Shown here: piece after piece, positions 11,874 to 39,395 of the stretch | Layout: each line of letters starts with the position of its first letter | Position numbering within the stretch: the first letter of the stretch is position 1 | Assembly (NCBI GenBank): GCA_001773135.1 | Contig: MEVX01000012.1 | Coordinates: 1 to 41,711, forward strand | DNA length: 41,711 nucleotides | Origin: a candidate division WWE3 bacterium RIFOXYB1_FULL_43_24 | GTDB taxonomy: Bacteria; Patescibacteriota; WWE3; UBA101185; UBA10185 | Direction of reading: 5' to 3' | Notes under the pieces: generated by a model | What the model was told of the DNA's origin: nothing | The model's input: only the letters and a program-made list of their open reading frames with translations | The model's database searches: none | Translations under genes and position numbers: made by a program

Positions 11874-11894
11874 AATTTTCTATGGTTGGGGTGA
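11874..11894. repeat. Extra copy of tRNA-Pro 3' end plus flank (20/21 match to 12071-12091)
   Basis: aattttctatggttggggtga versus aattttctatggtcggggtga. Confidence 0.85.
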
Positions 11895-11931
11895 ATTCGC
11901 TTCGCGAAGCACTAACTTGAGAAGTGAGTGG

Positions 11932-12020
11932 AAGGACTCGGTCACCGGTTCGCGTCTGCTGACGCGCCCGTCGACCCCCTCTCGCTCGCCTTCGCTCGCT
12001 GCGAATCATTCTCGTCCTGC
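11932..12020 (-). repeat. Structured repeat element A (tRNA-Pro associated)
   Basis: Minus strand: GAATGATTCGCAGCGAGCGAAGGCGAGCGAGAGGGGGTCGACGGGCGCGTCAGCAGACGCGAACCGGTGACCGAGTCCT; shares GCGAGCGAAGGCGAGCGAG, GGTCGA, TCAGCAGA loop and GTGACCGA with elements B/C. Confidence 0.75.
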
Positions 12021-12079: not shown

Positions 12080-12156
12080 TGGTCGGGGTGACAGGACTCG
12101 AACCTGCGGCCTTTCGCACCCCATGCGAACGCGCTAGCCAACTGCGCCACACCCCG
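12080..12156 (-). tRNA. tRNA-Pro (anticodon GGG), encoded CCA
   Basis: CGGGGTGTGGCGCAGTTGGCTAGCGCGTTCGCATGGGGTGCGAAAGGCCGCAGGTTCGAGTCCTGTCACCCCGACCA; 7-bp acceptor, TTCGC/GCGAA anticodon stem. Confidence 0.95.
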
Positions 12157-26905: not shown

Positions 26906-27008
26906 ATTGGCTGGGGGACAGGGATTCGGTCACGCATAAAATTCTGCTGAATTTTTGCTCGACCCCGCCTCGCTCGCCTTCGCTCGCTCCGGCATTCGAA
27001 TCCTCCAA
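26906..27008 (-). repeat. Structured repeat element B ending in tRNA-Gln 3' end
   Basis: Minus strand GGATTCGAATGCCGGAGCGAGCGAAGGCGAGCGAGGCGGGGTCGAGCAAAAATTCAGCAGAATTTTATGCGTGACCGAATCCCTGTCCCCCAGCCA; 26906-26967 identical to 28304-28365. Confidence 0.9.
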
Positions 27009-27131
27009 ATCACAACAATAAAAAATGTCCGCAAATCCTGCGGACTTCCGGCCATTTTTCATGGCTGAGCACACGGATCTAGAACCTTAGTCTTTCTCCG
27101 AGATGATTATATATAGTTTTAATAATTAAGG

Positions 27132-28058
27132 TTAACGATTTTCCTGTAAATAGGCTTCAATTAGTTTTATATCATTCAAGTCTTTTTCTCTACCTAAAGC
27201 TTTTTTAAATAATTTTAGCGTAGACAGCTGCACATAGGGATGTCCATCAAGGATCTCAGCTTCTTTTACCTGTGTCTCAACCGGGCAAATGTTTGGATTT
27301 GTGAAATGCGATCCCTCACCTAGAATTGTTACGTTTCCTATTTGAATTGTTTCAAATCTTTCGCTTATGACAGGGTATTTGACTTTATACCTATCCCAAA
27401 CACTAGGTAAAACAATAATATCCAGATCATGTGGTTCTCTTAGGTTTCTTACGGCTAGTGGGCCGGAACCTGTTATTGCATATTCTCCAACTAATAAACC
27501 AATTTGGTCTAACTCTTTGAGGAGATTAGTTAGTATCCCCTGTTTCTCCTCAATTAAAAACTCTGAAAACGTATTCGGATATGGATATTCATGGTCATTT
27601 CTATGCATAGATATAACACTTATTTCGTTATCAATTTTATGAAGAAAGTCGCACACATTTTTGTATGACCCATGATTATCGTTTTCGTTCTGAATAAATA
27701 ACATTTTATTTTTAGGAATACTTTTGAGTATCGAGTAGTGTTCGCAGTCTTCAGAGGATAGATCTTCCAGAGGTATACCGTTAAGAATTATTTTATTTGT
27801 TAATGAAGATTCTTTTTCTAACAATTTAATTGTTACATAGGTTCCAATGGATTTTGCGAGGATATTTATTTTCTGGTTTTTATATTTTTCGCTAACTCCA
27901 TCCGCGGTTTTTTCGATCCAATTTTTGGTTGCAACACCTGTTTTCCAGTGATCCCAATATATTACTTCGGAATCAACATCCGGAGAAAGTTCCTTGCTTA
28001 TATGTTCCGCCCAATCTTTATTTTTTATTGAAAATCCGGGAAGAATTAGTGTTTTCAT
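27132..28058 (-). CDS. Alpha/beta-hydrolase-like domain fused to nucleotidyltransferase-like domain
   Basis: N-term LILPGFSIKNKDWAEHISKEL, NILAKSIGTYVTIKLL, IQNENDNHGS; C-term YAITGSGPLAVRNLREPHDLDIIVLP and ALGREKDLNDIKLIEAYL (NTase/AbiEii-like). TATAAT 6 nt upstream of ATG. Confidence 0.65.
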   Translation of the reverse strand: MKTLILPGFSIKNKDWAEHISKELSPDVDSEVIYWDHWKTGVATKNWIEKTADGVSEKYKNQKINILAKSIGTYVTIKLLEKESSLTNKIILNGIPLEDLSSEDCEHYSILKSIPKNKMLFIQNENDNHGSYKNVCDFLHKIDNEISVISMHRNDHEYPYPNTFSEFLIEEKQGILTNLLKELDQIGLLVGEYAITGSGPLAVRNLREPHDLDIIVLPSVWDRYKVKYPVISERFETIQIGNVTILGEGSHFTNPNICPVETQVKEAEILDGHPYVQLSTLKLFKKALGREKDLNDIKLIEAYLQENR

Positions 28059-28196
28059 AATTCAATTATACAGTGAGTTTTATATAAAAAGACCCTTCGG
28101 ATCTAGAATTTCATAAAAGGATATTTACTAGCCCTAAAAGGCTATTCGAGGCTTCATGGTCACTTGCATGCCCACTCTGGCCAGCAGTATTGTATG

Positions 28197-28286
28197 TTAT
28201 CTGAAGAATATTGCCCAAATTAGGGCAATAAATAAAACTATTAATAATCCTATAGCTCTTCCAACAAAAAACTTTTTAGGTGTCAT
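28197..28286 (-). CDS. 29-aa single-TM microprotein (MTPKKFFVGRAIGLLIVLFIALIWAIFFR)
   Basis: Read directly; not in ORF track. TATAAT (28293-28298 on minus) six nt upstream of ATG. Confidence 0.5.
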   Translation of the reverse strand: MTPKKFFVGRAIGLLIVLFIALIWAIFFR

Positions 28287-28303
28287 GGAGTTATTATACA
28301 TTT

Positions 28304-28402
28304 ATTGGCTGGGGGACAGGGATTCGGTCACGCATAAAATTCTGCTGAATTTTTGCTCGACCCCGGCTCGGCACCGTCGTGCCTGCGCCATTCGAATCTT
28401 TC
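28304..28402 (-). repeat. Structured repeat element C ending in tRNA-Gln 3' end
   Basis: First 62 bp identical to element B; different first arm with WC hairpin GGCAC-GACG-GTGCC. Confidence 0.9.
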
Positions 28403-28506
28403 CGCCTTCAACAAGTAATTTGTCAACCAACCCTGCGGGCTGCTTGCCAAATCACTGGCTGGCGGTTTTGCACGCTATTTGAATTTTGTAGTTATAATAT
28501 TGTTAT

Positions 28507-28968
28507 ATGAGTCTTACTTCAAAAGAATTGATTAATGGATTTAAGAAATCCTATTATCGTACTAAAGATGCGAAAAACTCGGAAGAAATATTAGAAGTGT
28601 ATTACTCCCTGTTCGAGACACTAAACTGGGTTGTGGCGATCGATTACAAACTATGCGCAGAAAAAAATGACAATAAATGGTTTTCAAAACTAGGTTCCGA
28701 TGGTGATTATATAAATGCGCTGAGATTTGCAAGGAACAGGACTTACCATCAGTGGTTTACTATATTTAAATTAGATCGAAATGATACTTTTCCTGCAATA
28801 TTTCCTATGCTTCTTTCTACATGGAAATGGTGCCCTTTATCAGATATACCTTCTGAAAGAGGTCAAAAAGAGGACCCAAACGATGAAAAACTCTACGTAA
28901 AACTTTTGGCAAACAGACCCGTAAAAGATGCTTTAGTGATTATTGATAAAATATTTTCTATTACCTGA
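28507..28968 (+). CDS. Hypothetical protein, possible HEPN-like fold
   Basis: Helical; ALRFARNRTYHQW contains R-x4-H (RNRTYH). TATAAT 28493-28498 upstream. Confidence 0.5.
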   Translation: MSLTSKELINGFKKSYYRTKDAKNSEEILEVYYSLFETLNWVVAIDYKLCAEKNDNKWFSKLGSDGDYINALRFARNRTYHQWFTIFKLDRNDTFPAIFPMLLSTWKWCPLSDIPSERGQKEDPNDEKLYVKLLANRPVKDALVIIDKIFSIT

Positions 28969-29041
28969 ATTATTTTAGTGGCCGTTTTGTAAGCTATTTA
29001 AACTGTTATTTTACAACGTACTGTGGTATAGAGTAATAAAG

Positions 29042-29380
29042 ATGGAGATTCATAGAAAAACAAAAGAAAGATATGGCTCTTTTTTTGAAGATAGGATTTG
29101 GCTAGCATGGGCAGAAGGCTGGTTTAAGATTCTCGAATGGTTAACCCTGATAGCTTTATTCGAGTATGTTTCAGTTACGACCGGTAGTAAAATACTAAGT
29201 TTTATAGTAACCATCTCATACACACTACTGTTTTATTATCTATATAACAAACTTTTTAATACTTGTTGGTTTAGATATAGACTGTCGAAGCTTTGGTCTA
29301 CGATCAGCTCTCTTATAATAACAGTTTCTGCATTTGCATTAGTAACAAAAATAGTAGAACAAATTACAGGAAAATATTAG
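29042..29380 (+). CDS. Hypothetical small membrane protein
   Basis: 2-3 predicted TM helices (LTLIALFEYV, ILSFIVTISYTLLFYYLY, SLIITVSAFALV). Confidence 0.5.
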   Translation: MEIHRKTKERYGSFFEDRIWLAWAEGWFKILEWLTLIALFEYVSVTTGSKILSFIVTISYTLLFYYLYNKLFNTCWFRYRLSKLWSTISSLIITVSAFALVTKIVEQITGKY

Positions 29381-29524
29381 TATTAGACGATAACAATAGA
29401 AACCAATTATCATTTCGCTGGGTATACGGCATAAATACTCATATGTATTTAGTAATACCAGAGCTGAAAGTTAGCGGATGTTGTTGGCACAATCTTGATT
29501 TTGAAAGACTTGACCGCATTTTTA

Positions 29525-30115
29525 TTAATAACCATTGAAAACATTTCCACAATAGGGACATTTTTCTCCAACTTTTACATTTTCGTTAATACAGTAAGGG
29601 CAAAACATAGGATTATCCTGATCTTCTATATATTCAGGTGAGGGTGAAGGAGAAGGAGATACGGAGACAGCACTTGCAAGACCCGAAGCAGTACTCACTG
29701 CAGTGCCTGCTGTCATTTGATCAATCACATTGTTAGTCACTTTTTTTAGCATCGATTTTAGATCGATAAGACCTTGTGCTTGATTAAGGGATAAAGCTTC
29801 AACCTTGGAATTAAGTTCTTTTAATAGGTCAAAATCAACATCCTTTTGAGCATACATAGCTGCTACTTTTTTATACCACCAATCTCTCATTTGCGTTATT
29901 TCTCTACGTTTTTCAGGGTTAGCACCAAACCAAGTATGGCAATTAGGACATAGCGGAGCTGCGTTATCAAATGTATCCTCTCCTTGTTCTTTTTGCGGTA
30001 TTATATGGTGCGCTTCAATTCCAATATTCTGACACCTACAACACCTGAATGCCGATTTTTCCTTAACGTTATTAATAATTGCTTCACTAAAAGCCATATA
30101 ATCGGGTTGTAGCAT
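29525..30115 (-). CDS. HNH endonuclease-like protein with C-terminal zinc ribbon
   Basis: AFRCCRCQNIGIEAHHIIPQKEQGEDTFDNAAPLCPNCHTWFG (HNH) and CPYCINENVKVGEKCPYCGNVF (Zn ribbon); TAATG overlap with upstream gene. Confidence 0.8.
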   Translation of the reverse strand: MLQPDYMAFSEAIINNVKEKSAFRCCRCQNIGIEAHHIIPQKEQGEDTFDNAAPLCPNCHTWFGANPEKRREITQMRDWWYKKVAAMYAQKDVDFDLLKELNSKVEALSLNQAQGLIDLKSMLKKVTNNVIDQMTAGTAVSTASGLASAVSVSPSPSPSPEYIEDQDNPMFCPYCINENVKVGEKCPYCGNVFNGY

Positions 30116-30783
30116 TAAGCTCTAGACCAACCCCCTTCAATAAGTTCTCTTGTTAATTTGGCTTTTTGAGGGTGTATATATAGATTTCTTATGATATCTT
30201 CAATAACATCAATACAGAGAGACAGATCATCTTTATGATGCTTTTTGATTTCATGAGTAGCTAAATTGCCAATATCTTTAACAAGCATGAGCAATACTGC
30301 ACCATCTCTTGTAATAATATTTTTATGAACCATCTCATCTATTTTTGTGTTTATCCCCTGAACCTTTATGTCTTGTTGAATTGATATTGCCTCAATAGTG
30401 GTTCGTACTCCTATTGCTGTAAGAATTAGCATCCCTGCGTTAAAGGATTTTATTGTTTCTTCATAAATTGTACGTACATCTTTAGGTATGCTGAAATAAC
30501 CGTTTACTAATTCCCTATCACTTCTAAAGGGCGTTGGATGTACACTTTCTGTGATGTCAGGATCGCCAGTTTGCGGGTCTACATCTTCACTGCTAACATA
30601 TCTGATCAATAAACAAATGTTATCACAACCTAAACATCGCAAAGTAAGAAAAGTTGTACTGTCCCATATATCACCATCATCGCTAGTTCCAAATTTTTCA
30701 TACTCATTGATTACATTGTGCCAAGTTTCTTGCTGGCAAGCTTTACACATTATTTTACTTTTATATTTTTTTGACACATTCAT
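30115..30783 (-). CDS. DUF4145-like domain protein
   Basis: N-terminal CxxC pairs (CKAC..., CLGC) and AIGVRTTIEAI...MVHKNIITRDGAVLLMLVKDIGNLATHE. Confidence 0.75.
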   Translation of the reverse strand: MNVSKKYKSKIMCKACQQETWHNVINEYEKFGTSDDGDIWDSTTFLTLRCLGCDNICLLIRYVSSEDVDPQTGDPDITESVHPTPFRSDRELVNGYFSIPKDVRTIYEETIKSFNAGMLILTAIGVRTTIEAISIQQDIKVQGINTKIDEMVHKNIITRDGAVLLMLVKDIGNLATHEIKKHHKDDLSLCIDVIEDIIRNLYIHPQKAKLTRELIEGGWSRA

Positions 30784-30806
30784 AGATTTGGTTCAGCCAA
30801 TATTAT

Positions 30807-31718
30807 TTAAGTTTTATCCTCTGAAATTAATTGACTATATGCGGCCTTAAATACTTGCCAGCAAATATGGGCCGTATTTTCATCGGGGTTAAATGCTTGT
30901 GCAACCTGTTCATGTGGATGAATAAAATTTCTAAAATCTCTTAGAGCATGACTAAATTTCTTCACGTCTAGCTTAAGACGCTTCGTTGAATATGAAACAT
31001 CAATCAAATCTGATAATGTCCAATCATATATCTTTTTAATATATCCGTTTTTATCTTTGGGCGCAGAGTTGTTAGTCATGAATTCTTTTTGGTTTTTTAA
31101 AGCTACTCCAAGCAATATACCTTCCAGCGTACTCCCTAACTGAAAGATAAGACTTAAATTAAGGTCACTTTCTAAGCAACGTCGCGCTTCATTAACTCTA
31201 TCTGTAAGTACCTGTGTAATAACAGAATCTAGATTTAATTTATTAATATCAATCTCATCGCTATAATCCTTTTTTAAAAACTGATTAATTTCATTATCTG
31301 AAGATGCGTTATTTGAAAGTTTATCTCCATCTATATTAATTGATTGAATTCGTTTAAGAGTAGGGGTTGCTCCAATATACTCAATTTTCATTGCTTCCAT
31401 GCCAAGTAACTCATTCATTGCTTTGTACGCCATGGCTAGAAGTTTTTGATCGCCTTTGTATTCTTTCGGGTCAACTAACCTTAGTAGCACCTTTTCGAAT
31501 TCAGTAGGTATTAGTCTGTTTAAAGTTTCTAATACCCACCATTTACGGGTAGATCCGTCATGTGCAACGTTAATTCCTATATTTTGAAAAAATCTAGTTA
31601 GATATGATGAAGATCTGTAAACTGGGTAACGTTCCTTTATATCTCCGCAAATGAAATCAGCTATTGTTTCTACAACGGCAGGGTCAGGTAATTGTCCAAA
31701 GTGTAAACTATTGTCCAC
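30807..31718 (-). CDS. Abortive-infection (AbiJ/Abi_C)-like protein with HEPN-like C-terminus
   Basis: C-terminal KFSHALRDFRNFIHPHEQ (RNxxxH); N-terminal YLTRFFQNIGINVAHDGSTRKWWVLETLNRL. GTG start, TATAAT 6 nt upstream. Confidence 0.65.
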   Translation of the reverse strand: MDNSLHFGQLPDPAVVETIADFICGDIKERYPVYRSSSYLTRFFQNIGINVAHDGSTRKWWVLETLNRLIPTEFEKVLLRLVDPKEYKGDQKLLAMAYKAMNELLGMEAMKIEYIGATPTLKRIQSINIDGDKLSNNASSDNEINQFLKKDYSDEIDINKLNLDSVITQVLTDRVNEARRCLESDLNLSLIFQLGSTLEGILLGVALKNQKEFMTNNSAPKDKNGYIKKIYDWTLSDLIDVSYSTKRLKLDVKKFSHALRDFRNFIHPHEQVAQAFNPDENTAHICWQVFKAAYSQLISEDKT

Positions 31719-32013
31719 ATAAGAATTATAACACTCGATGGTTGCAACCGCGGCCTTTAATATTTAGACTTCGCTTATACTCAACAATATCTACAAGTTG
31801 ACTATTTCTACATAAAATGCTACCCACCTATACGCTAATAATGGTTTGGGATATAACTTTTCTAAGGCTTATTCTTTACTCTACAAGGCGGTTGAGATTA
31901 CTAATAGTTCGGAAATCAAAAATATTAAGGAATTTCGGGATTATATTTCCGAACCTGACGAATTAGTTGCTAGTAAAATGAAAACTGACTCTTTTCGAGC
32001 CATTCGTTCCTCT

Positions 32014-32087
32014 TGGCTGGGGGACAGGGATTCGAACCCCAATTTTTGCATCCAGAGTGCAAAGTCCTACCATTAGACGATCCCCCA
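32014..32087 (-). tRNA. tRNA-Gln (anticodon CUG), encoded CCA
   Basis: TGGGGGATCGTCTAATGGTAGGACTTTGCACTCTGGATGCAAAAATTGGGGTTCGAATCCCTGTCCCCCAGCCA; 7-bp acceptor. Confidence 0.95.
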
Positions 32088-39290: not shown

Positions 39291-39395
39291 ATGCCAGTAA
39301 AGAAAAAAGCAAAGAAAGTTGCAAAGAAAGTAGTAAAGAAAAAAGCAAAGAAAACCGTTAAGAGAAAAGCTAAGAAATCTTCCAAGAAGAAGTAA
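39291..39395 (+). CDS. 34-aa Lys/Ala-rich histone-H1-like protein (MPVKKKAKKVAKKVVKKKAKKTVKRKAKKSSKKK)
   Basis: Near-perfect SD AGGAGGTGATC upstream of ATG; not in ORF track on this strand. Confidence 0.7.
   Translation: MPVKKKAKKVAKKVVKKKAKKTVKRKAKKSSKKK

Follow-up and report, generated by a model that had tools for sequence, protein, structure and literature searches.

Folded elements behind tRNA genes of Patescibacteria: candidate attachment sites of mobile cassettes

In the Patescibacteria a family of folded elements lies downstream of tRNA and tmRNA genes; and we interpret these elements, with a probability of roughly 0.6 and on the strength of sequence comparisons, as structured attachment sites through which mobile cassettes enter the 3' ends of those genes, in the manner of the attC sites of integrons but with a tRNA gene as the partner. 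The stretch of DNA that we analysed (41,711 nt; hereafter, the window) comes from a WWE3 bacterium (Patescibacteria), whose genome of 777 kb, here labelled G000, includes it as contig C12 and carries 12 copies of the element at 10 of its approximately 40 tRNA and tmRNA genes. A preliminary description of the window had pointed to three such elements, A, B, and C; and all the motifs claimed for them are indeed present, all on the minus strand, with the pairings GGATTC/GAATCC, GGTC/GACC, AAAATTC-AGCA-GAATTTT (in B and C), and CGCGTC-AGCA-GACGCG (in A) being correct, along with the distinction between an arm 1 with tandem G.A mismatches in A and B and a Watson–Crick version in C. The loop TCAGCAGA, considered invariant, proved to be nearly but not strictly so, the variants TCACCAGA, CCAGCAGG, CTAGTAAG, and CCTCCAGG being found as well; whereas the element does not end at GAATCC, as had been assumed, but continues into an exact copy of a tRNA 3' end (tRNA-Gln in B and C, tRNA-Pro in A). 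The observation is real and extends well beyond A, B, and C; the key feature that the earlier reading missed is the tRNA or tmRNA gene upstream of the element together with the copy of that gene's 3' end after it.

The arrangement is most fully displayed at the tRNA-Gln(CTG) gene of the window (32014–32087, minus strand; identified by ARAGORN, Rfam, and the exact repeat D4), whose last 21 nt (32014–32034, minus strand; repeat D4) constitute the tail that becomes copied. A first cassette follows with about 3.6 kb of cargo (28403–32013), including genes, all on the minus strand, for a 303-aa protein of no family (30807–31718; ORF list and Pfam), a 222-aa DUF4145 protein (30115–30783; Pfam), and a 196-aa HNH endonuclease related to type IV restriction enzymes (29525–30115; Pfam and PADLOC). 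At the syntenic tRNA-Gln site of the relative G002 this cargo is absent, and a C-like element lies 58 nt after the tRNA. Element C itself (28320–28399, minus strand; covariance-model match of 81.8 bits, E = 4e-21) combines an outer stem with arm 2 and the Watson–Crick version of arm 1; next to it comes the tRNA-Gln tail copy, from C56 to A76 (28306–28326, minus strand; repeat D4), the first 7 nt of which are within the fold. The second cassette (cargo at 27023–28305; ORF list and Pfam) contains an open reading frame for a 308-aa protein (27132–28058, minus strand) with a weak Pfam match, below the cut-off, to Ser_hydrolase; and directly upstream of B the sequence forms a terminator-like hairpin (27022–27060, minus strand), of the kind that occupies the spacer of about 50 nt in many copies. 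Element B (26922–27003, minus strand; 102.4 bits, E = 3e-27) has the tandem-G.A arm 1 and an arm 2 identical to that of C, and its tRNA-Gln tail copy is at 26908–26928 (minus strand; repeat D4); both of the copies, after B and after C, are exact over 21–22 nt. Element A (11934–12017, minus strand; 91.4 bits) begins 62 nt after its target gene, tRNA-Pro(GGG) (12080–12156, minus strand; ARAGORN and Rfam), and the tRNA-Pro tail copy that follows (11875–11933, minus strand; repeat D14) is split after GAGTCCT by some 40 nt, its 3' part, CACCCCAACCATAGAAAATT, resuming at 11894. That interruption (11894–11933) holds an inner palindrome (GCTTCGCGAAGC). Elsewhere in the window, at 39296–39391, six 12-nt in-frame repeats of the GCAAAGAAARYN type probably encode a lysine-rich protein tail.

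Each element is a three-way junction made up of an outer stem, arm 1, and arm 2, with the shared layout 5' arm, GAAT, arm 1 (GSC GSA, hairpin, GA GSC), GG, arm 2 (GGTCG[A/C] ... GTGACC), and tail. In the ten aligned G000 copies, double changes were found in 15 of the 26 pairs, giving a score of 0.49 as against 0.15 upon shuffling (0 of 500 shuffles) and at most 0.08 when the partner strand was slid, while 96.1% of the cells were paired versus 79.3% in the shuffled alignments and no more than 38% with the partner slid by one base. When 68 copies, from WWE3 and its relatives, were aligned, the double changes reached 23 of the 26 pairs, with a score of 0.508 as opposed to 0.163 in shuffles (0 of 500) and at most 0.06 upon sliding; because this larger alignment had been fitted to the covariance model, the ten-copy result with its slid control is the cleaner evidence. 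The covariation of the elements is not a chance occurrence. In the distant genome G072, moreover, some of the copies have GCCC/GGGC at the base of arm 2 instead of GGTC/GACC.

Among the cells that are not Watson–Crick pairs, G.A or A.G was present in 103 versus C.T or T.C in only 3, and G.T in 32 versus A.C in 17; these asymmetries show that selection for folding acts on the strand which reads as the tRNA. Within the outer stem, tandem G.A often replaces T-A and C-G (as in GGATGA/GAATCC). The calculated DNA folding energies, of −16.4 versus −13.2 and −20.5 versus −17.2 kcal/mol for sense versus antisense, favour the sense strand only modestly. A strand preference and the folding of an imperfect palindrome, two of the properties of an attC site, are present in the element; and the earlier proposal of selection on a folded strand, attC-like in concept, is supported by the covariation, by the mismatch asymmetry, and by the tRNA-tail copies.

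Those copies extend from C56 in the T-loop to the end of the gene, usually over 21 nt where CCA is encoded and about 19 where it is not. In 56 of the 68 copies a stretch of at least 15 nt reproduced exactly the tail of a same-strand tRNA at that locus, 28 gene types including tmRNA being involved and the tRNA being left intact next to a direct repeat of its 3' end; this frequency answers largely in the affirmative the question raised earlier as to whether such a tRNA copy always accompanies the element; most of the other 12 were at contig ends or had decayed tails. The identity begins at C56 in 57 of the 65 copies at CCA-encoding tRNAs and stops at the gene end, and with genes not encoding CCA the copy stops about two bases sooner, at the end of that gene. 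A repeat ending where the gene ends, with or without CCA, fits a restoration of the gene rather than a target duplication of fixed length. At a tRNA-Met gene of G072 (L271:4237–4317) the duplicated tail runs at least 12 nt past the tRNA end, unlike the other copies.

The outer stem differs from target to target because it pairs with the tail copy. The complementarity of the 5' arm and the spacer end to the element's own tail had a mean score of 6.63, compared to 4.79 ± 0.13 after permutation of the targets (0 of 2000 permutations), and attained 11 nt at a tRNA-Gln(TTG) gene (L114). At loci where the live tail and its copy are unequal, the 5' arm more often favours the live tail than the copy; there are two opposite cases, at Gln in G002 and at Gly in G005, where the distal copy gives the arm a better fit than the live tRNA does. 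At the Lys(CTT) site of the relative G001, the distal copy keeps the sequence of the empty genes of G000 and G002, and the live tail differs from that copy and fits the 5' arm better (8.5 versus 6.0); in this single case the pattern is the one expected if the live tail had arrived with the cassette, though an ordinary evolution of that tRNA is possible instead, the 5' strand of its T-stem having also changed. Arm 2 is 91% identical between copies at the same target in congeneric genomes versus 62% between copies at different targets within one genome; arm 2 identity tracks the target, and the elements therefore constitute target-specific lineages. A suspected within-genome homogenisation of the arms was not supported, since arm 2 follows the target and not the genome. 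The types of arm 1 and arm 2 nevertheless reassort, as seen in B and C, which share the latter and differ in the former.

The element begins 16–63 nt after the tRNA in 44 of 56 cases, the spacer often being a terminator-like hairpin, and tandem units are found at tRNA-Gly (×2), tRNA-Leu (×2), and tRNA-Tyr (×3). Many units measure only about 150 bp, and some hold 1 to 10 kb of cargo; cargo cassettes are those at the tRNA-Gln of the window and at the loci L057, L058, L122, L123, and L135. Outside the window, L057 has a reverse transcriptase among its cargo and L135 a GmrSD-HNH protein; glyoxalases and, at L058 and L123, large serine recombinases (LSRs) are also carried. The reverse transcriptase (337 aa; L057:2404–3417) is located between two tRNA-Gly tail copies. 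A comparison of G000 with the congeneric genomes G001 and G002 revealed occupied and empty versions of syntenic tRNA sites, the cleanest being tRNA-Leu(GAG), occupied in G000 and empty in the other two, where the downstream gene begins shortly after the tRNA; Arg(TCG) was occupied in G000 and G002 and empty in G001, Lys(CTT) was occupied in G001 alone, and the tmRNA site was occupied in G000 and empty in G001. Some of the flanks of the occupied sites were too diverged for a base-exact empty site to be defined, and in this material neither an excised circle nor a de novo insertion was observed.

The main rival of the attachment-site reading is a role as RNA, in which transcription of the element together with the tRNA, or downstream of it, would yield a molecule that serves in tRNA maturation, termination, or regulation, with the tail copy forming part of it. 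Such a function would produce an identical covariation and sense-strand bias; the RNA folding z-scores of −4.0 for B and −4.9 for C (the latter scoring −4.3 as single-stranded DNA), the near-constant position at 16–63 nt after the tRNA, and the many units devoid of cargo would all be in keeping with it. An RNA function is nevertheless difficult to reconcile with the patchy presence of the elements among close relatives, with tandem and cargo-bearing copies kilobases away from the tRNA, with the terminator-like hairpin that in many copies intervenes between tRNA and element, and with the 28 unrelated targets plus tmRNA; nor would it need an exact tail copy. Rfam, moreover, searched in both the gathering and the E-value modes, contained no family for the element, only tRNA and tmRNA exceeding the gathering score and the best sub-threshold matches around B being at chance level. 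We consider a role as RNA improbable.

Quite improbable, in our estimation, is a non-autonomous transposon of the MITE or SINE kind, which a transposase, a reverse transcriptase, or Cas1 would have inserted at tRNA 3' ends, duplicating about 20 bp of the target site, with the fold serving as the binding site of the enzyme. In favour of it are the small size and repetition of the units, their constant position in numerous tRNA genes, and the short direct repeat on either side of them; and some casposons do insert into tRNA genes and generate target duplications (PMC6563490). In a search that covered Cas1, the Y1 transposase, and reverse transcriptase, however, Cas1 was found in 0 of 18 element-bearing genomes, and the Y1 transposase and reverse transcriptase were each missing from 10 of 16, including G000, G072, and G129, which absences rule out IS200/605, reverse transcriptase, and Cas1 as the general enzyme; furthermore, the repeat length tracks the end of the tRNA gene instead of being constant, and the 5' arm of the insert matches its own target. 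The analogy with IS200/IS605 ends put forward in the preliminary description finds no support, given the same lack of a Y1 transposase and the duplication of 19–21 nt of tRNA tail, which IS200/605 is not known to make.

With respect to the enzyme that would act on sites integrating in this way, most units contain no integrase. G000 possesses two tyrosine recombinases, both XerC/D-like and neither an IntI, their matches to the integron-integrase model (NCBIfam TIGR02249) being 43.5 and 128.8 bits as against a cut-off of 265, and both matching XerD better. Exactly one tyrosine recombinase, XerC/D-like, was present in at least 12 of 17 distant element-bearing genomes, including G129, which bears seven elements, and G072, which bears six. 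A second XerC/D-like recombinase of 291 aa (about 290 aa at L018:1450–2325, minus strand, and G000:C15:62673–63545) was found in 45 of 58 relatives irrespective of the presence of elements, nearly always beside the usual one; two element-bearing WWE3 genomes, G007 and G012, are without it, so that this protein is dispensable for the presence of the elements. A dedicated tyrosine integrase was also sought: throughout the 58 relatives and 17 distant genomes, no extra one was common to those bearing elements. Among the enzymes tested (tyrosine and serine recombinases, Y1 transposase, reverse transcriptase, and Cas1), only the universal XerC/D-like protein would account for all the cases; that protein is universal for another reason, the resolution of chromosome dimers, and its link to the elements is by elimination, because no other tested enzyme fits every case.

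At two loci, L058 (tRNA-Lys; LSR of 602 aa) and L123 (tRNA-His; LSR of 553 aa), an LSR gene adjoins the tRNA, with the folded site and the tail copy at the opposite end; these are the only LSRs met as cassette cargo, and in no other unit was one found at the attachment end. The frames of both (L058:13382–15190 and L123:13459–15120) reach the tRNA on the opposite strand or continue through it, as if the gene end had been swapped upon integration. In L063 the 3' end of an LSR gene adjoins the distal tail copy; and in L115, L119, and L129 the LSR gene 3' ends adjoin tRNA 3' ends (with His, Arg, and Lys among the targets). These last four loci, mostly with no folded site nearby, point to WWE3 elements targeting tRNAs that form a set of their own or one related to the present family. 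That the elements might all be ordinary attL/attR scars of LSR elements at tRNA 3' ends, the LSR being the integrase everywhere and the small units deletion derivatives, is the least probable of the alternatives: the LSRs at L058, L123, L063, L115, L119, and L129 speak for it, but G072 (reported as 100% complete, with six elements) contained no LSR by a hidden Markov model built from nine such proteins, the single LSR of G000 is N-terminally incomplete and 12 kb from the nearest element copy, and no LSR site is known to need a folded partner. A serine recombinase, present in two cargo cassettes yet absent by that model from G072, is improbable as a general answer.

In the mechanism that we propose for the attachment sites, a cassette would consist of a tRNA tail from C56 to the gene end, a spacer often with a terminator hairpin, an optional cargo, and the folded site. 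Integration would take place in the T-loop of the chromosomal tRNA, roughly between C56 and position 57, by joining the tail of the cassette there, so that the tRNA would stay intact and the original tail would be displaced beyond the folded site, giving the order tRNA, cargo, folded site, and tail copy, while repeated insertion would build the tandem arrays. In the single-stranded tRNA-sense strand, the 5' arm would pair with the tail and arm 2 would stack upon it, thereby rebuilding a duplex around the crossover point, in a process that may be likened to the folding that creates the recombinase-binding boxes in an integron attC. The recombinase would act in trans, as either the host XerC/D-like tyrosine recombinase or, in some lineages, an LSR borne by the cassette. 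The covarying fold, the tRNA-specific tail copy, the target-matched 5' arm, the strand bias, the empty versus occupied sites, and the cargo cassettes are features read directly from the genomes and argue for this scheme; what we infer from them is that the cassettes move as circles, that a folded single strand recombines, where exactly the crossover lies, and which enzyme acts.

The search suggested by the preliminary description, with a covariance model in Patescibacteria, did yield further homologs with compensatory changes, 21 of 197 sampled Patescibacteria genomes being positive. A pattern scan of 85,488 GTDB species combined with the covariance model located the family in WWE3, Peregrinibacteria, Kaiser-, Yonath-, Yanofsky-, Zambryski-, Falkow-, Moran-, Doudna-, and Levybacteria, among others, mostly with tails. 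The pattern matches outside the Patescibacteria (in Streptomyces, Rhizobiales, and others) were rejected as chance, having no tRNA tail and low or no covariance-model scores, and the phage and plasmid records gave no match to element B. A 1.2-kb contig (L162; JAKPPP010000140.1) of a MAG labelled 'Bacteroidota' carries two WWE3-type elements in tandem and was probably mis-binned. Two matches of 24–32 bits in G037 were dropped for want of a tRNA tail; a pair of related structured repeats of 68 nt in that genome (L032 and L043), with low scores against the model and likewise no tRNA tail, belongs to a different repeat family.

Of the known systems, the integron attC would be, by analogy, the nearest working model. 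An attC site, imperfectly palindromic, recombines in the form of a folded strand, and its structure decides which strand is used (PMC8946536). In both systems the cassettes are short, usually with the cargo preceding the imperfect palindrome, one strand folds with conserved irregularities, the sequence of the site varies with its structure kept, and arrays are possible. The elements differ in that attI is replaced as the partner by one among many tRNA genes, in the lack of IntI and, by inspection, of GTTRRRY/RYYYAAC boxes, the aligned ends being of the GACC-GAATCC type and tRNA-derived, in the branched three-way fold, and in the many units without genes. The 3' ends of tRNAs are a known class of attachment site, with the tRNA being rebuilt on integration (PMC8371274), and, as in the phages, islands, and tycheposons that use them, the 3' end is duplicated here from the T-loop on and the tRNA is kept functional; unlike those elements, however, the present units go down to about 150 bp and mostly lack an integrase, and the attachment half at their far end is a conserved, covarying fold, with a 5' arm that complements the respective target, within one family having 28 targets. 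IS200/IS605 ends and REP/RAYT repeats likewise have conserved hairpins, which are recognised as single-stranded DNA, but G000 and most of the genomes tested are without a Y1 transposase, and the tRNA-tail duplication and the three-arm fold are peculiar to the present elements. Certain casposons resemble them by inserting into tRNA genes with short direct repeats, whereas here Cas1 was missing in 18 of 18 genomes, no terminal inverted repeats were seen, and the repeat length was not constant. By the tests made (for IntI, R boxes, Cas1, Y1, and reverse transcriptase), neither an integron, a casposon, an IS200/605 element, nor a reverse-transcriptase element fits. IMEX such as the CTX phage are integrase-less DNAs that exploit the host Xer recombinase, in the case of CTX by means of a folded single strand; these provide a plausible model for an integrase-less DNA using XerC/D, although the targets here are tRNA genes and not dif, and the use of Xer is deduced solely from the absence of other tyrosine recombinases.

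The literature search, which most subscription papers lay outside, returned no description of such elements, and relative to that literature the combination of a tRNA-targeted site with a folded-strand half is new. In the Patescibacteria, a very large and mostly uncultured group with reduced genomes, in which gene acquisition is poorly known, the elements look like an undescribed way of capturing DNA, integron-like, with many tRNA genes as docks and no dedicated integrase in most of the genomes. We advance only tentatively, as a rather doubtful extension, a phylum-wide integron-like capture without an integrase of its own, where the cassettes would end in a folded single-strand site, an arm of each site would be complementary to one tRNA, much of the tRNA gene set would serve as docks, and the single Xer of the host would act, possibly on single strands arriving by transformation. 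The sites mark the entry points of mobile DNA and its cargo (restriction-type nucleases, reverse transcriptase, glyoxalases, and recombinases), may be found in any genome by means of the covariance model, and offer a defined test of the host Xer enzyme on folded sites other than dif. If the folded strand were the recombining form, the elements would represent, besides the integron, a second and independent structure-guided capture of cassettes, targeted through the complementarity between an arm of the site and a tRNA tail.
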